In this document: positions 2,685-10,369 of the stretch, one piece after another
Position numbering within the stretch: the stretch's first letter is position 1
How the letters are laid out: the number at the start of each line of letters is the position of its first letter
Origin: Armatimonadota bacterium
GTDB lineage: Bacteria; Sysuimicrobiota; Sysuimicrobiia; Sysuimicrobiales; Sysuimicrobiaceae
NCBI GenBank assembly: GCA_031460175.1
Contig: JAVKGW010000007.1
Location: 1-64,000 of the forward strand
Direction of reading: 5' to 3'
Length of the DNA: 64,000 nt
Notes under the pieces: generated by a model
Seen by the model: only the letters and a program-made list of their open reading frames with translations
The model's database searches: none
Told to the model about the DNA's origin: nothing
Position numbers and translations under genes: made by a program

Positions 2685-5252
2685 ATGAAGGTAACGCGAC
2701 GGACGTTTCTGCGGACCTCCGCCGCTGCAGGCGGCAGCCTTCTGGCCAGCCGGCTGCTGTTCGGTGATCTGGAGACGCTTCGGGCAGCTCCGCGTGGCGT
2801 CTCCGGGGCCGTGGAGGAATGGGTTCCCACCACCTGCTGGATCGGCAAGCAGGACTGTGGGGTTCTGGCCCGGCGCATCGGCGGCAGGGTGGTGAAACTG
2901 GAGGGGAACCCCGCACACCCTCGCAACCGGGGCACCCTCTGCCCCAAAGGGGTCGCGCAGATCACCGCCCTGTACGACCCGAACCGGGTGAAGGCTCCCC
3001 TCATCCGCACGAACGAGAAGGGGGTTCCGGGCCGGTGGCGCCGGGCCACGTGGGACGAGGCGCTGCGGCTCGTGGCGGACCGGATCCGGGAGGTGCGGGC
3101 GAGGAACCCGAAGCTGGTGGTCTGGCAGAAAGGACGCGGCAAGGCCGGGGCCTTCTACGACACCGCCTTCGTGAAGGCCCTGGGTGCGACCAAGCTCGGC
3201 CACGGCGCCTTCTGCTCGGACGCGGGATACCGCGCCTGCGAGTACACGGTGGGCATCAGCGGGGTGCTGCACCCGGACTTCCGGTACGCGAGGTACATCC
3301 TGGCCTGGGGATGGAACCTCACGAACGCCGGCGGAAACCAGCTGTGCTGGATCACTTGGCCCCAGCAGCTCCTGCAGGCGCGGGAGCGGGGGTGCAAGGT
3401 GGTCCTCATCGACCCGCGGCGGAGAGGGGGAGGTCCGTTCGTGGACGAGTGGCTCCCCATCCGGCCGGGGACGGACCTCGCGCTGGCCCTCGCCCTGTGC
3501 CACGAGCTCGTTCAGCTCGGGGCGGTGGACCGGGAATACCTCGTCCGGTACACCAACGCGCCCTTCCTCGTGCAGGAGGACGGGTTCTTCCTGCGCCGGG
3601 ACGGCAAGGAGCAGGTGTGGGACCAGAAGTCCGGGGGCCCAAGAGCGTACGACGCGCCGGGGGTGGAGCCGGCCCTGGAAGGTGAGTTCACGGTGGAGGG
3701 GCGGAGGGTGAAGCCCGCCTTCCAGGTCTTCAAGGACCACGTGGCACCCTACACCCCGCAGTGGGCCGCGGAGGTGTGCGGGCTGCCGGCAGAGCAGATC
3801 CAGCGGGTGGCCCAGGAGTTGGCGGAGTACGCCCACATCGGCGCCACGGTGGTGGTGGACGGGGTCCGGGTGCCGTATCGGCCGGTGGCCATCCACGCCT
3901 ACCACATGGCGCAGCAGGAGCTGGGCTTCCAGGCGGTGCGGGCCATGACCCTGATCATGATGCTGCTGGGGGCCGTGGGGGCGGTGGGCGGGCAGCGGTT
4001 CGAGGTCGGGCCGTGGAAGCTGCACGAGAACTTTGAGAAGCTGGACCGCATCGAGATCAAAGATCCCCCTTACGACTTCACCCTGAAGGACTCGAAGTTC
4101 TTCCCCATCAACTCCGCAAGCCCCGCGGTGGTGGCGAAGGTCATGCAGAACCCCGAGAAGTACGGGGTGAAGGACCTGCCCGAGGTCTTGATCCTCCACA
4201 TGACGAACCCGCTGCGGGCGTACGGGTCTGCCCCGGACATCCGGGAGGCGTACAGGAAGTTCAAGTTCATCGTGGCCATCGACCCGTGGCTCTCATTGAC
4301 CGCGGACCTGTTTGCGGACGTGGTGCTCCCCGCGGCCACCCTGGAGAAGTACGAGGGCCCGTACTCCGCCGCGGACCAGTACGTGGACGCGGTGGCCCTC
4401 CGCGTCCCGGTGATGCCGCCTTTGTTCGAGAGCCGCGGGGAGATCGAGATCTACCTGGACCTGTGCGAGAAGCTGGGCGTCCTCTACGGCAAGGGCGGGT
4501 ACCTGGACCACCTGAACGAGGCGCTCAAGCTGAAGGATCCGTACAAGTTGCCCCTGGACCGGAAGCCCACGGTGCGGGAGATCTTCGACCGGTGGGCGAA
4601 GTCGGAGGGGATCCCGGAAGGGGTGGCCTACTTCGAGAAGCACGGGGTGCGGCCGAAGGGCGTCATCAAGGCCACCCAGCTCTACGGCTACGCCACGGAT
4701 CCGCCCTTCGGTGGGGTGCGGCACCGCTTTTACGGGGAGTCCCTGCTGCGCTACCGGAACGAGATGCGATCGAAGGGGGCGGGTGAGATCTACTGGCGGG
4801 ACTACACCCCGCTGCCCACCTGGCGGAAGCCCACCATGGAGAACTCGCCGCCCGAGTACGACCTGTACCTGGTGAGCTACAAGCTGATCGAACACAAGCA
4901 GTCCCGTTCCGCACAGCTCCCTCTTCTCTCGGAGCTCGCACGTCGGGCATGGCTGGAGATCAACCCCGCCACGGCCCGGGCGAAGGGGATCCGGGACGGG
5001 GAAGAGGTGTGGGTGGAGTCCCACAACGCGCTGACGGGCGAGACCCGGCGGGTGAAGGCGGTCGCCCGCTACCGGGAGGGGATCCGGCCCGACACCGTGG
5101 GCCTGCCACACCACTTCGGGGCGGCGGCGAAGCATCCGTGGGCGGACGGCAACGGGGCAACGGGCGCGGAACTGTACTTCACGGGGGAGGGGTACGTGGC
5201 GAACACCGCGGACCAGTCCTTCCACGTGAAGGTCCGCGTCTACAAGGCATAG
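2685..5252 (+). CDS. TAT-exported molybdopterin oxidoreductase catalytic subunit with a three-cysteine Fe-S motif
   Basis: This 855-residue protein starts with a twin-arginine signal (TRRTFLRT, residues 4-11, then a hydrophobic stretch to about 27), so it is folded in the cytoplasm and exported. The N-terminal Fe-S site reads C51-x2-G54-x3-C58-x27-C86; the usual second Cys is Gly. A Cys in HGAFCSD (about residue 180) is the likely Mo ligand. The C-terminal dinucleotide-binding domain is complete. It is followed after 15 bp by the ferredoxin subunit and then the membrane anchor, the usual A-B-C order of quinone-linked CISM enzymes. It is not a simple duplicate of the upstream subunit: motifs and length differ. 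Substrate unknown; sulfur oxyanion, polysulfide, arsenate or selenate chemistry are all possible. Confidence 0.88.
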   Translation: MKVTRRTFLRTSAAAGGSLLASRLLFGDLETLRAAPRGVSGAVEEWVPTTCWIGKQDCGVLARRIGGRVVKLEGNPAHPRNRGTLCPKGVAQITALYDPNRVKAPLIRTNEKGVPGRWRRATWDEALRLVADRIREVRARNPKLVVWQKGRGKAGAFYDTAFVKALGATKLGHGAFCSDAGYRACEYTVGISGVLHPDFRYARYILAWGWNLTNAGGNQLCWITWPQQLLQARERGCKVVLIDPRRRGGGPFVDEWLPIRPGTDLALALALCHELVQLGAVDREYLVRYTNAPFLVQEDGFFLRRDGKEQVWDQKSGGPRAYDAPGVEPALEGEFTVEGRRVKPAFQVFKDHVAPYTPQWAAEVCGLPAEQIQRVAQELAEYAHIGATVVVDGVRVPYRPVAIHAYHMAQQELGFQAVRAMTLIMMLLGAVGAVGGQRFEVGPWKLHENFEKLDRIEIKDPPYDFTLKDSKFFPINSASPAVVAKVMQNPEKYGVKDLPEVLILHMTNPLRAYGSAPDIREAYRKFKFIVAIDPWLSLTADLFADVVLPAATLEKYEGPYSAADQYVDAVALRVPVMPPLFESRGEIEIYLDLCEKLGVLYGKGGYLDHLNEALKLKDPYKLPLDRKPTVREIFDRWAKSEGIPEGVAYFEKHGVRPKGVIKATQLYGYATDPPFGGVRHRFYGESLLRYRNEMRSKGAGEIYWRDYTPLPTWRKPTMENSPPEYDLYLVSYKLIEHKQSRSAQLPLLSELARRAWLEINPATARAKGIRDGEEVWVESHNALTGETRRVKAVARYREGIRPDTVGLPHHFGAAAKHPWADGNGATGAELYFTGEGYVANTADQSFHVKVRVYKA

Positions 5253-5267
5253 GACCGGAGGTGGCGG

Positions 5268-6005
5268 ATGCCGAAGTACGCCATGGTGATCGACCTGGAC
5301 CGGTGCATGGGGTGCCGGGCGTGCATGGAGGCGTGCAAGGTGGAGAACAACACGCCCACCGCCCACTTCTGGATGTACGTGTTCCGGTTCGAGGAAGGCC
5401 ACTACCCCAACACCCACGTGTGGTTTCTGCCCCGCCCCTGCATGCACTGCGACAACGCCCCGTGCGTGAAGGTGTGCCCCGTGGGCGCCCGGTACAAGCG
5501 GGAGGACGGGTTGGTGGCCACGGACTGGGACCGGTGCATCGGGTGCCGCTACTGCGAGGTGGCCTGCCCGTACGGGGTGAACTTCTTCAACTGGAAGGAC
5601 CCGCGGAAGAACGCGTACCTGGACTGGGACGACGCGGACCTGAGGCCGCGGACGGACGGGAACAGCCCGCCCTACCGCAACCCGGACCTGGACCGGCGGT
5701 ACGGGAAGGAAGGTCGGCGCACCGCGGGCGGAGGTCGGCTGCGGGGGGTCATCGAGAAGTGCACCTTCTGCGTCCACCGGGTGGAGCGGGGGCTCAAGCC
5801 CGCGTGCGTGGCGAACTGCCCCGCCTTCGCCCTCCTGTTCGGCGACCTGGAGGATCCGGCGAGCGAGGTGTCCCAGGTGCTGAAGCGGAAGCCATCCTTC
5901 CGACTGCTGGAAGAGCTGGGCACCGAGCCGCGGGTGTACTACGTGGGCGGGCACCCGCCGCACCCGGAGTCCAAGCCCGTGGAAGAAATCGTTGCGAGGG
6001 TCTGA
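5268..6005 (+). CDS. Four-cluster [4Fe-4S] ferredoxin subunit (PsrB/TtrB/NrfC type)
   Basis: The protein has 245 residues and no signal peptide. It carries the four Cys clusters of DMSO-reductase B subunits: CMGCRACMEAC near residue 15, CMHCDNAPCVKVCP near 65, CIGCRYCEVACP near 90, and a split last cluster including CTFCVHR and CVANCP near 165-185. It should wire the molybdenum subunit to the membrane anchor, probably riding through the TAT system with the catalytic subunit. The start ATG at 5268 has a GGAGG-like site just upstream (accggaggtgg). Confidence 0.92.
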   Translation: MPKYAMVIDLDRCMGCRACMEACKVENNTPTAHFWMYVFRFEEGHYPNTHVWFLPRPCMHCDNAPCVKVCPVGARYKREDGLVATDWDRCIGCRYCEVACPYGVNFFNWKDPRKNAYLDWDDADLRPRTDGNSPPYRNPDLDRRYGKEGRRTAGGGRLRGVIEKCTFCVHRVERGLKPACVANCPAFALLFGDLEDPASEVSQVLKRKPSFRLLEELGTEPRVYYVGGHPPHPESKPVEEIVARV

Positions 6006-6008
6006 GCC

Positions 6009-7499
6009 ATGGCCACGCGGACGGAAACCCTCCCGTACGGCGTCGGACGGTTCACCGCCGGCTGGTGGCTGCTGCTGGCGGTCCTGGCGGTGCTGGTGGG
6101 TTGGGGTTTGTACGCCTACTCCCGCCAGCTCGCGGAGGGACTCGTGGTGACGGGGCTGCGGGACATCGGGAGCATGGCGGGGGCGGCGTGGGGCCTGTAC
6201 ATCGCCTTTGACATCTACTTCGTGGGGGTGAGCTTCGCAGGCATCACCATGGCGGCCCTGATCCGGCTGCTGCGCCTGGAGGAGCTCAGGCCGGTGTCGC
6301 GCATGGCCGAGCTGCTGACCATCGTGGCTTTGATCCTGGCGGCCTTCAGCGTCCTACCGGACCTAGGCCAGCCCGTGCGGGGCATCGTGAACCTGTTGCG
6401 GTACGCGCGGCCGCAGTCGCCCTTTTTCGGCACATTTACCCTGGTGATCTCCGGCTACCTGTTCGCGAGCCTGGTGTACTTCTACCTGGACGGCCGGCGC
6501 GACGCGGCCCTGCTGGCGCGGATCCCGAGCCCCCTGCAAGGCTTCTACCGCCTGTGGGCTGCGGGCTACCGGGATACCCCGGCGGAGCGTGAGCGGCACC
6601 ACCGCACCGCCTTCTGGCTCGCCATCGCCATCGTGCCTTTGCTGGTGACCGCCCACTCCACCCTGGGGTTCGTGTTCGGGATCCAGTCCGGCCGGCCTGG
6701 CTGGTTCAGCACGCTGCAGGCCCCTGCTTTCGTGGTAATGGCTGGCGTGTCGGGGATCGGGCTGCTGCTGGTGATCGCCGCGGTGTTTCGGCACGTGCTG
6801 GGCGAGCGTGAGCGGTTGCACGAGGGCATCTTCCGCTGGCTAGGGGGTCTGCTGGCGCTGCTGGTGCTCGTTTATCTCTACTTCACAGTGGCGGAGCTGC
6901 TGACCACCACCTACACGGGTCACGAGGTAGAGGTGCGGCTGACCCTGGCGCTGCTCAACGGACCGTACGCCTGGCTGTTCTGGGTCAGCATGGGGGCGCT
7001 GGTGCTGGCGCTGGCGTCGCTGGTCCTGCCCTACGTACCCTCCCTGGTGCCCGTGCGCGTGCCCTCCTTCCAGCCGGCCTTCGCGCGTGCAGCCGGTCTG
7101 GCGGCGGCGGGCGCGGGGCTGGTCCTGATGATCTACCGCCACAGCCCCCGCCTGGTCCCCGTGGCCGGAGCTGGCGGGCCCGAACCCGAATGGGTGGGGT
7201 GGGTGCTGGCGGGTCTGGCGGTGGTGTTCGTCCTGTCGTGGTTCCCTCTGTTCGCCCGGAGCGTGGTGGCCGCAGGCGTGGCGGGAGGCTTGCTGGTGAA
7301 CGTGGCCGCGGTGGGCAAGCGGCTGCTCATCGTGGTGCCCTCGCAGACGCATGGCACGCTCCTACCGTACGGACCCGGCTCGTACACGCCCACGTGGGTG
7401 GAGTACAGCGTCGTGGCCGGCCTGTTCGCGCTCGGCACGCTGCTGTACACCCTGTTCGTGAAGGTGTTCCCGATCATGGAGGTTGCGGAGGAACGGTGA
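6009..7499 (+). CDS. NrfD/PsrC-family membrane subunit of the CISM complex
   Basis: A 496-residue polytopic protein with about ten hydrophobic segments, starting 3 bp after the ferredoxin subunit. The segment with YIAFDIYFVGVSFAG near residue 65 and the C-terminal stretch ending in a Lys-Val-Phe-Pro motif are typical of the long NrfD branch (PsrC, ActC and relatives). It should exchange electrons between the ferredoxin subunit and the quinone pool; whether it also moves protons cannot be told. Gene order A-B-C supports one complex. Confidence 0.9.
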   Translation: MATRTETLPYGVGRFTAGWWLLLAVLAVLVGWGLYAYSRQLAEGLVVTGLRDIGSMAGAAWGLYIAFDIYFVGVSFAGITMAALIRLLRLEELRPVSRMAELLTIVALILAAFSVLPDLGQPVRGIVNLLRYARPQSPFFGTFTLVISGYLFASLVYFYLDGRRDAALLARIPSPLQGFYRLWAAGYRDTPAERERHHRTAFWLAIAIVPLLVTAHSTLGFVFGIQSGRPGWFSTLQAPAFVVMAGVSGIGLLLVIAAVFRHVLGERERLHEGIFRWLGGLLALLVLVYLYFTVAELLTTTYTGHEVEVRLTLALLNGPYAWLFWVSMGALVLALASLVLPYVPSLVPVRVPSFQPAFARAAGLAAAGAGLVLMIYRHSPRLVPVAGAGGPEPEWVGWVLAGLAVVFVLSWFPLFARSVVAAGVAGGLLVNVAAVGKRLLIVVPSQTHGTLLPYGPGSYTPTWVEYSVVAGLFALGTLLYTLFVKVFPIMEVAEER

Positions 7500-7714
7500 T
7501 GCGGGCGGCCTGGACGCTGCTGTTGGTGTTGGTGGGTTTTGGCCTACAGGCGGTGAGCTACTTCTTCTTAGCGGCACCCCTGGGGGTTCCCAGCAGCCCT
7601 GTGTACAGCGACCCGCGGTTGCCGTTCGCGCCGGCCCTGTTCATCCTGGGTGTCATGCTCGTGTTCTTGGCCGCGGTGGTGTACGAGCTCTTGCCGGAGC
7701 GCAGCTCCCCGTGA
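7499..7714 (+). CDS. Small two-helix membrane protein of the CISM operon
   Basis: A 71-residue protein starting at an ATG that overlaps the previous stop (TGATG). It has two hydrophobic segments, roughly residues 5-25 and 45-64, joined by a loop rich in Pro and Ser. It matches no family I recognise. Its position between the anchor and the chaperone, with overlaps on both sides, suggests an accessory subunit of the membrane complex. Confidence 0.65.
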   Translation: MRAAWTLLLVLVGFGLQAVSYFFLAAPLGVPSSPVYSDPRLPFAPALFILGVMLVFLAAVVYELLPERSSP

Positions 7715-8355
7715 AGGCCCTCGCCGCGGCCCGGCACGCCCTCTACCGGTTCTTCGGCCTGGTCTTCCTGTACCCGGATCCTGGGCGGCGGGCGCGGCTG
7801 CGCCGGCTGGCGCGGGCGCTGGGGGCGGAGAAGGCCGTGCGCGGCCTGGCCTTCTTCCCCGTTTGGCGGGCGTCCTGGGAGCGGCTCCAGCAGAACCTCG
7901 GGGAGGGGCTGGAAGAGGTGTACCTCCGGATCTTCGACCTCACGGGTCGGCGAGGAGGCTGCTCCCTCTGCGAGTCCGGCTACCGGGACGCTTCCTGGCA
8001 GGCAGCGGCGGAGTTGCAGCGGGAGTACCGGGAGGCGGGAGTCCAGCCGAAGGGTCCGGAGCCTTCGGACCACCTCTCCGTGGAGCTGGAGTACCTGGCC
8101 GTGCTCGTGGCGAGGGAGGCTAGGGAGTGGGAGGCCGGCACGGCCGGGGTGGAGGAGATCTTGCGACGGCAGCGAGACTTCCTGCGGGCACACCCGTGCG
8201 CCTGGGTGCCGGAGCTGGTGGTTCGCGTCCGGGAGCACGACCCCACGGGCGTGTACGCGGCAGCGGCGGAGGCGCTGGAGGCCTTCCTGGAGCACGAGGG
8301 GGACCTTACGGAGCTGCTCCTCCGGCAGGTGGGGAAGGTGGAGCTGGCGCGGTGA
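7711..8355 (+). CDS. TorD/DmsD-family molybdoenzyme maturation chaperone
   Basis: A 214-residue, mostly helical cytoplasmic protein. The GTG start at 7711 overlaps the preceding stop (GTGA), as is usual here. Features of the TorD family include an early RFFGLVFLYPD stretch and a central EPSDHLSVELEYLA segment near residue 115, matching the conserved E-P-x-D-H region. Such chaperones bind the twin-arginine leader of the catalytic subunit and hold it for cofactor loading; the client here is probably the 2685-5252 protein. Confidence 0.85.
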   Translation: MKALAAARHALYRFFGLVFLYPDPGRRARLRRLARALGAEKAVRGLAFFPVWRASWERLQQNLGEGLEEVYLRIFDLTGRRGGCSLCESGYRDASWQAAAELQREYREAGVQPKGPEPSDHLSVELEYLAVLVAREAREWEAGTAGVEEILRRQRDFLRAHPCAWVPELVVRVREHDPTGVYAAAAEALEAFLEHEGDLTELLLRQVGKVELAR

Positions 8356-9890
8356 TGGGGATGGGGGAGCCTGGACGGGCCCTGCTCGTGATCTGCGGAC
8401 ACCGAGGGAATCGGGGCGCGCCGTGGGCGGATCTGGGGGCGGTGGAGGAGATCCCGGGTGCGTGCGAGTTTCCGGAGCGCCTCGTCCGGTTGCTCCGCTC
8501 CCACCCCGCGGATCGCGGCGTCCTCGCCCTCTGTGGGGTCTGGGCGCTCCCGGAGGACGTCCGGGTGGCCCTGCGGGGCGCGGGGAAGGACCCGGAGGCC
8601 TTTTTCGCGCTGGATCCGTGGTCCGGGCAGGATTCCGAGGCGGGTGCAGAACGCGCGGCGCTCCTGATCCGGGCGGCCCTGGCGCGGGTGCGGGTGTGGC
8701 CTGGCACGGTCCCGGCGAACCTGGCTCCGTACCTGCCGGAGCGGCTAAGCCGCCGCACGCTCCTGCGGTTCCCACCCGTGGCGTACCGGGTGGTCCCTCG
8801 GGTGGAACGGGACCGGTGTCGGGCCGCGGACGGCTGCGCGGCGTGTGAGGGGAGCTGTCCTGTGGACGCCCTCCGGGTGGCCGAGGGCCGAGTCGTGCTC
8901 GATCGGACGAAGTGCACGGGGTGCGCGGCATGCGTGGAGGCCTGCCCGCACGAGGCGGTGGTCTTTCCGGGGTACATGGGGGAGGAAGTGGCCGCGCACG
9001 TGGAGGCCTTGCTGGATCCCACGGTGGGCCCTCCGGGGCCGAGGGGGATCGTGTACGTGTGCGCGGGCGTCCCCTGGGATCCCTCGTGGGATGCGAGGTG
9101 GCTTCCGGTTCCCGTGGCGTGCGTGAGCTCGCTACCTGTCTCGTGGATCCTCGCGCCCCTTTTACGGGGGGCGAGTTCGGTCGCGGTGGCGCCGTGCGCC
9201 TGCAAAAGAGGGGAGGGCGCCCGTGGGGTGCTGGAAGCCCGGCTGGAGTTCTGCCGGGCGTATCTCGGAGGGCTTGGGCTCGGGGAGCGGAGGATCCACG
9301 GGGCGCTGCTCTCCGTGGCGCCCCACGAGGAGCCTGCCCTGCCGCGGTGCGGGGACGGGGAAGGGACGTTGTTCGGGACAGGACCGGAGGCCGCTTCCAG
9401 GGTGCTGCGCCTATTGGCGGACGTGGCGGGTCGGGCCGCGTGGGTCGAGCACCCGGCTTCTCCCCTGGGCCTGGTGGAGATCGACGCGGGAACCTGTACC
9501 GGGTGCGGCATGTGCGCGGCGCGGTGCCCGACGGATGCCCTCAGCTTCGTGCAGGACGGGGAGGCGGTCCTGCGATGGGATCCCGCCCGATGCACGGGGT
9601 GTGGGCAGTGCACCGGGGTCTGCCCGGAGATCGAACGGGGGGCCATCCGGGCGCGCCGTGCCGTGGACGTCGCGGAGCTGCGCCGCGGCGTCCGAACCGT
9701 GTATCGGGAGGAGGTGGTGCGCTGCGTGGCCTGCGGAGCCCCCGTGGCCCCCCGCCGCATGCTGGAGCGGGTGACGGGCCTGCTGGGGGAGGACGGCCGC
9801 GCGTGGGAGGAGGTGCTCTCGTGGTACTGCTCGGAGTGCAGGGCCCTTCGAGGCCGAGGGGTCGGCCTGGAGCCGGAGGCGGGAGCGTGA
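8355..9890 (+). CDS. Polyferredoxin with a central MvhD-like (hydrogenase iron-sulfur subunit) domain
   Basis: A 511-residue protein overlapping the chaperone gene (TGATG). Two cluster-binding motifs sit near residues 155-200 (CAACEGSCP, then CTGCAACVEACP) and two more near 380-420 (CTGCGMCAARCP, CTGCGQCTGVCP). Between them lies a region resembling MvhD/FrhD: two short beta stretches with Cys residues and a CACKRGEGA segment. The tail has a Cys pair (CVACGAP) and CSEC. It lacks a signal peptide, so it is cytoplasmic. It may carry electrons between a soluble donor and the complex or help maturation. Operon context is clear, exact function is inferred. Confidence 0.75.
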   Translation: MGMGEPGRALLVICGHRGNRGAPWADLGAVEEIPGACEFPERLVRLLRSHPADRGVLALCGVWALPEDVRVALRGAGKDPEAFFALDPWSGQDSEAGAERAALLIRAALARVRVWPGTVPANLAPYLPERLSRRTLLRFPPVAYRVVPRVERDRCRAADGCAACEGSCPVDALRVAEGRVVLDRTKCTGCAACVEACPHEAVVFPGYMGEEVAAHVEALLDPTVGPPGPRGIVYVCAGVPWDPSWDARWLPVPVACVSSLPVSWILAPLLRGASSVAVAPCACKRGEGARGVLEARLEFCRAYLGGLGLGERRIHGALLSVAPHEEPALPRCGDGEGTLFGTGPEAASRVLRLLADVAGRAAWVEHPASPLGLVEIDAGTCTGCGMCAARCPTDALSFVQDGEAVLRWDPARCTGCGQCTGVCPEIERGAIRARRAVDVAELRRGVRTVYREEVVRCVACGAPVAPRRMLERVTGLLGEDGRAWEEVLSWYCSECRALRGRGVGLEPEAGA

Positions 9891-10369
9891 GGCGAGGCAG
9901 CCTTCGGAACGTACCCTGGGCGGCGTTTGCGCTGGTTCTGGCCGCGCTCCTCGGCGGGTGGTGGTCGTGGCGGCGGGCCGCATCCCCGGAGCTCCCGAGT
10001 CCGGCACGGGTGGTCGTGTACCAGAACCCGCGCTGCGGCTGCTGCGGGGTGTACGTGGGCTACCTCCGTGGGGCGGGCTACGCGGTCGAGGTGGTGAGGA
10101 CGGAGGACATGGAGGGGGTCAAGCGGCGGTACCGGGTGCCGCGCCCGCTTTGGAGCTGTCACACCGCGGTGGTGGGCCGGTACTTCGTGGAGGGGCACGT
10201 GCCGGCGGAGGCGGTGCAGGAACTGCTGCGGCGGGCCCCGGACGGGCTGGGGATCGCACTCCCCGGCATGCCCAGCGGGTCGCCCGGCATGCCCGGCCTG
10301 CGGCAGGGATCCTTTGTGGTCTATGCGGTCACCTCCGCGGGCACGTGGCGGGAGTTCGGGCGGTTCTAG
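9887..10369 (+). CDS. DUF411-family membrane-anchored metal-binding protein
   Basis: A 160-residue protein from a GTG overlapping the upstream stop. A single N-terminal hydrophobic segment (residues 9-24) would anchor or export it. The DUF411 core follows: NPRCGCCGVYVGYL near residue 45, a second conserved Cys in WSCHTAV, then VEGHVPA and a PGMPSGSPGMP stretch. DUF411 proteins are often near copper or redox genes and are thought to handle metal. It closes the plus-strand operon and is convergent with the deaminase gene 13 bp away. Confidence 0.8.
   Translation: MRRGSLRNVPWAAFALVLAALLGGWWSWRRAASPELPSPARVVVYQNPRCGCCGVYVGYLRGAGYAVEVVRTEDMEGVKRRYRVPRPLWSCHTAVVGRYFVEGHVPAEAVQELLRRAPDGLGIALPGMPSGSPGMPGLRQGSFVVYAVTSAGTWREFGRF

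Follow-up and report, generated by a model that had tools for sequence, protein, structure and literature searches.

A conserved glycine in the FS0 cluster motif defines a broad clade of molybdo-bisPGD enzymes

In enzymes of the MopB/DMSO reductase (CISM) superfamily, the iron-sulfur cluster FS0 comes directly after molybdenum as the first stop for electrons. The window, the whole 64,000-nucleotide stretch of DNA that was analysed, encodes a catalytic subunit in which one of the four FS0 cysteines is replaced by glycine. This raises the questions of whether the replacement belongs to one enzyme or to a family, what kind of cluster the site may hold and which substrate the enzyme may use. We refer to the protein encoded at 2685-5252 as MopG; the gene and its relevant residues are the following.

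2685-5252, + strand: MopG, catalytic molybdo-bisPGD (MopB/CISM) subunit, 855 aa (open reading frame, Pfam, fold)
2835-2942, + strand: altered FS0 motif C51-x2-G54-x3-C58-x27-C86 (codons, translation)
2844-2846, + strand: Gly54 codon GGC, replacing the second cluster cysteine (aligned with the Cys of PsrA, 2vpw, and ArrA, 6cz7)
3135-3143, + strand: Arg151-x-Lys153, clade-specific invariant (alignment; Arg151 lies opposite the Arg of ArrA "GRYSH")
3213-3215, + strand: Cys177, predicted Mo ligand (lies opposite the region of the Mo-ligand Cys in PsrA and ArrA; invariant)
3345-3347, + strand: Cys221, clade-specific invariant, candidate outside ligand or active-site residue (76/76; predicted secondary structure)

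The motif reads C51-W-I-G54-K-Q-D-C58-x27-C86, with C51 encoded by TGC (2835-2837), C58 by TGT (2856-2858) and C86 by TGC (2940-2942). The cysteine/glycine pattern and the clear TGC..GGC..TGT reading described in a first-pass annotation are thus confirmed at the level of codons. The Pfam families Molybdopterin, Molydop_binding and Molybdop_Fe4S4 all match MopG above cut-off, the last at residues 45-92 with an E value of 3.5e-9, and the predicted fold (mean pLDDT 90.5) agrees with membership in the superfamily. MopG carries a Tat signal peptide, in which R5-R6 are invariant.

To determine how widely the glycine is conserved, relatives were collected in two ways. A first scan of genome contigs returned 80 relatives, but CWIGKQDC was one of the six search patterns and conservation in this set is therefore biased, so the search was repeated with MopG residues 95-855 only. 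This motif-blind search covered 294 genomes from the class of a SAR202-type Chloroflexota, 43 genomes of the window's phylum, 296 genomes from the class of an acidimicrobial group and 292 of the haloarchaeal class. The results were bimodal. All strong matches with a readable motif have glycine, in the form CW[IVL]GK[QM]DC; this holds for bacterial matches above about 475 bits and for all haloarchaeal matches. Weaker bacterial matches (up to 342 bits) show C-x2-C-x3-C or other arrangements, and canonical C-x2-C was found only below 345 bits.

When 106 sequences were aligned jointly, 76 of 76 clade members showed Gly54, and none of these has the canonical C-x2-C-x3-C-x27-C motif; the clade motif is C-W-[IVL]-G-K-[QM]-x-C as opposed to C-x2-C-x3-C. 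Outside the clade, 25 rows carry a residue in this column; 24 of them show cysteine, and the lone glycine comes from the misread frame of a broken copy. A maximum-likelihood tree, built with a quick method and midpoint-rooted, separates the 77 Gly rows from all others by a single branch (SH-aLRT 99). Bacterial members of the clade belong to Chloroflexota, Thermomicrobiota, Actinomycetota, Bacillota, Rokubacteria, Methylomirabilota, Nitrospinota, Armatimonadota, Schekmanbacteria and Tectomicrobia, and archaeal members to Bathyarchaeota, Geothermarchaeota, Thermoproteota, Nitrososphaeria and haloarchaea (organism names are those of the record titles, and some records are MAGs). No plasmid-borne members were detected at E 1e-60. 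A sequencing error or lone mutation is ruled out by the universal presence of the glycine in the clade.

Taken together, the Gly54 variant is conserved and defines a broad CISM clade of single origin. The first-pass annotation had treated Gly54 as the oddity of a single enzyme, which it is not; its suggestion that a glycine conserved among homologues would speak for a subfamily with a distinct cluster fits these data well, with no clade member carrying Cys54. The clade is apparently undescribed and uncharacterised: the motif string was not found in a literature search, and the passages found in two family surveys contain nothing on it (PMC10100899, PMC7331816). For the ArrA, Unk and PsrA/PhsA clades the canonical four-cysteine motif has been stated (PMC2500031).

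Three divergent clade members (L071, L072 and L079, 43-47% identity; for L079 only the matched part was seen) have GRRGNDCGG instead of GHGAFCSD around the Mo ligand, and they may possibly represent a second substrate class. A broken MopG copy, 83-88% identical, was found in a genome of the same genus (L113, G001:C11, about 6646-9167). Two Trp codons near the motif (position 45 or 46, and position 52) are replaced by TGA stops, and the frame shifts near residue 245-258; the copy may be a pseudogene, or the assembly may be at fault.

In a 51-sequence alignment spanning bacteria and archaea, C51, C58, C86, K88, G89 and the predicted Mo ligand Cys177 are invariant. About 25 residues are clade signatures, and the clade-specific invariants include W52, G54, K55, Q56 (Met in some haloarchaeal copies), R151, K153, H407 and Cys221. 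Asp57 is a weak candidate for a replacement ligand, since this position varies (Glu in L017, Gly in L073).

The gene is followed by genes for the partners of a respiratory complex, and preceded by the end of another catalytic subunit gene.

1-2514, + strand: TtrA-like catalytic subunit, 3' part, cut by the contig end (profile, homologue comparison)
5268-6005, + strand: four-cluster [4Fe-4S] electron-transfer subunit, all 16 Cys present (profile matches, Cys count)
6009-7499, + strand: NrfD/PsrC-type membrane quinone-interacting subunit (PF03916, E 4.8e-24)
7499-7714, + strand: small putative membrane protein of 71 aa between NrfD and chaperone (translation)
7711-8355, + strand: TorD/NarJ-type (DMSO reductase family type II) maturation chaperone (PF02613, E 4.1e-19; TIGR03482, E 8.3e-22; start codon inferred)
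8355-9890, + strand: polyferredoxin with multiple Fer4 matches and a weak FlpD match (profile matches, neighbourhood)

The order MopG-FeS-NrfD-TorD is kept in most relatives, and each of the 16 cysteines of the four-cluster subunit is conserved in 62-64 of 64 relatives. The 71-aa reading frame at 7499-7714 overlaps the NrfD gene at its stop codon and the chaperone gene at its start. A polyferredoxin of about 550 aa lies downstream of the chaperone in 39 loci, and in 37 of the 53 relatives with enough flank. The translation of the window's copy has no visible signal, so that the protein is probably cytoplasmic. NapF, which has four labile clusters, aids NapA maturation (PMC10609526), and by analogy the polyferredoxin may be a NapF-like, possibly dedicated cluster-maturation factor. 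Downstream of it (9891-10369), a frame inspected by eye seems to encode a small CGCC-motif protein resembling metal-binding proteins of the DUF411 type.

With a four-cluster subunit and NrfD in the operon, a Tat signal and a cysteine as Mo ligand, the MopG complex is of the PsrABC/ArrABC type. PsrABC likewise combines a Tat-exported MopB subunit having a Cys Mo ligand with a four-cluster B and an NrfD-type C subunit, and PsrA (2vpw) is the best PDB sequence match to MopG (E 5.7e-70, covering parts only). PsrA, which belongs to a polysulfide/thiosulfate reductase, differs in having C-x2-C-x3-C, where MopG has glycine at the second cysteine. ArrA (6cz7), from the respiratory arsenate reductase ArrAB, is the best Foldseek match (TM 0.71), with PsrA also among the best folds in the PDB, yet ArrA carries the canonical cluster motif, and MopG has Tyr182 opposite a Lys of ArrA. 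MopG stays far below the curated cut-offs of both families, with 245.6 against 694 bits for PhsA/PsrA (thiosulfate reductase, NCBIfam PRK15488) and 122.7 against 1600 bits for ArrA (NF041714).

Other family members also have a non-standard FS0. The arsenite oxidase AioA, in which the fourth ligand (Ser) and not the second is lost, differs from MopG in its gene partners and gave only a weak, short match (E about 2e-7, residues 256-292, about 37 residues). According to the passages found in a family survey, AioA and the iodate reductase IdrA are natural molybdo-bisPGD enzymes with an N-terminal [3Fe-4S] FS0 (PMC10100899). DMSO reductase subfamily II (NarG, EbdA, PcrA) resembles MopG in its fold and in non-standard FS0 ligation, but there His replaces the first FS0 cysteine (PMC8840923), whereas all MopG clade members have Cys51.

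What, then, may the altered site hold? In ferredoxins, in FS4 of NarH and in fumarate reductase, [3Fe-4S] clusters occur where the second Cys of C-x2-C-x2-C is replaced, and the potential of such clusters tends to be higher. Judging from the sequences, only the first cluster of the MopG complex is altered and FS0 is probably still present, because the other three cysteines and Lys88 are invariant and a lost site would drift. By analogy, its likeliest form is a [3Fe-4S] cluster of raised potential held by Cys51, Cys58 and Cys86, because the same middle cysteine of C-x2-C is lost as in other [3Fe-4S] proteins. We place this form somewhat ahead of a [4Fe-4S] cluster with an outside ligand, and the absence of a cluster far behind both.

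The [4Fe-4S] alternative, a serious contender that we nevertheless consider the less probable choice, combines the three N-terminal cysteines with a fourth ligand contributed from outside the motif; Cys221 is the most plausible candidate and would have arisen together with Gly54. Cys221 is the sole signature cysteine of the clade, kept in 76 of 76 members including the haloarchaeal copies and without counterpart in true outgroups, and ligand swaps are tolerated at FS0, as the His-ligated cluster of DMSO reductase subfamily II illustrates (PMC8840923). With about 25 clade-signature residues, however, the co-occurrence of Cys221 and Gly54 is weak on its own. In the predicted fold, Cys221 moreover lies in a distant loop of the cofactor-binding domain, between strand 204-208 and helix 224-234, and may serve cofactor binding or catalysis instead. 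That FS0 is absent or a structural relic bypassed by the electrons, as reported for some family members of the DorA/TorA types in the passages found in a survey (PMC10100899), is very improbable given the invariance of C51, C58, C86, K88 and G89 in bacteria and archaea, and since the Mo cofactor enters NarG and DmsA only once FS0 has been inserted (PMC10609526, PMC5123574).

Of the three options named in the first-pass annotation, an absent cluster has thus become unlikely, with the other cysteines and Lys88 invariant, while a [3Fe-4S] cluster and a non-Cys ligand both stay plausible. Cys221, as a possible filler of the site, had not been pointed out in that annotation. A change in electron exit, also proposed there, probably amounts to a tuned rather than an abolished path, as the four-cluster partner subunit is intact. 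The window's genome contains five heme-copper oxidase (COX1-type) genes over cut-off. Together with the potential expected of a [3Fe-4S] cluster, these oxidase genes make a high-potential aerobic role of the MopG complex plausible.

Clues to the substrate come from the neighbourhoods of related operons. In 16 related loci, a PhnD-like periplasmic binding protein is encoded, nearly always beside a histidine kinase and usually with a LuxR-type regulator. The loci with this ArrX/AioX-like protein include L008, L015, L022, L023, L027, L029, L037, L043, L045, L055, L058, L066, L067, L074 and L075. The best solved match of the protein is ArrX (E 1e-57), followed by AioX. In AioX, the roles of the pocket residues have been described, with Cys106 binding arsenite (PMC5908839). 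The counterparts of Tyr88, Cys106, Tyr131, Ser161, His192 and Asp210 are conserved in 15-16 of the 16 proteins and site 163 is Ser or Thr, which places the neighbour protein in the AioX/ArrX sensor subfamily. The XSR sensor systems (ArrX/AioX) have the same pocket and the same kinase and regulator partners, but here they adjoin the MopG operon and not genes of the arr, arx or aio type. Since relatives of the Arr- and Aio/Arx-type sensors exist for phosphonate and for tetrathionate, the substrate may be a different oxyanion.

Genes for the arsenite exporter ACR3 were found over the curated cut-off near MopG in a haloarchaeon, a member of Chloroflexota and an acidimicrobial MAG, and just under it in a fourth locus. 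With a baseline of about 4 over cut-off in 50 Mb of 16 other genomes, the expectation for the 0.84 Mb of flanks is about 0.07. This link emerged post hoc from a survey of many neighbour families and is supporting evidence, not proof; besides ACR3, the tally of neighbour families consists mainly of molybdenum cofactor genes and acyl-CoA dehydrogenases. At the haloarchaeal locus, a gene for an ApbC/Mrp-like iron-sulfur cluster carrier (L078:13639-14895) lies between the enzyme genes and ACR3.

Within MopG itself, Arg151, His173 and Cys177 align with the Arg, His and Mo-ligand Cys of ArrA. We take the ArrA partners of the first two to be R165 and H189 (full-length numbering, by count) and to function in arsenate binding. 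The window's own genome contains no ACR3 and no ArrX-like protein, only weak PF12974 matches, and the region upstream of the operon is cut by the contig end; the arsenic link thus derives from the relatives. Arsenic or a similar oxyanion is the best lead for the substrate of the clade, drawn from the neighbours of these relatives.

An ordinary sulfur-compound reductase (for thiosulfate, polysulfide or tetrathionate), in which the cluster change has little functional meaning, appears rather unlikely. In its favour, no solved structure is closer in sequence than PsrA, and a TtrA-like operon lies directly upstream of MopG in the window's organism and in L009. The upstream TtrA is a separate unit, though, and just one of the loci has it next to MopG; moreover, MopG matches no NCBIfam equivalog at cut-off, as the PhsA score illustrates. 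The neighbouring sensors, furthermore, retain an arsenic-type pocket. In L009, the near-identical TtrA-like homologue carries the canonical CLMCNTGC motif and is part of a separate FeS-NrfD-TtrA cluster. A complex with both TtrA and MopG as catalytic subunits was rejected, since only the closest relative has the two side by side and TtrA comes with partner genes of its own.

The best explanation as a whole, to which we give an even chance, is a PsrABC/ArrAB-type complex of a distinct clade with a [3Fe-4S] FS0 and arsenic or a similar oxyanion as probable substrate. MopG, accompanied by a TorD-like chaperone, would be exported by the Tat system and face the periplasm in a complex with the four-[4Fe-4S] subunit and the NrfD membrane subunit. 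The [3Fe-4S] FS0 would sit between Mo-bisPGD and clusters FS1-FS4, and electrons would pass between the oxyanion, most likely arsenic or similar, and the quinone pool via NrfD. A bolder and in our view doubtful proposal is that the clade adds an undescribed lineage to the respiratory arsenic oxidoreductases Aio and Arx/Arr. This lineage would be common in Chloroflexota, Actinomycetota and archaea, and a three-cysteine [3Fe-4S] FS0 would allow its PsrABC-like complex to operate at high potential in aerobes.

A deep clade that spans two domains and has a fixed three-cysteine FS0 offers a natural experiment on how cluster type tunes the direction and potential of such enzymes. If the links to the sensor and to ACR3 hold, MopG would also join the enzymes of arsenic cycling, as one so far overlooked in marine and thermal lineages that are abundant.
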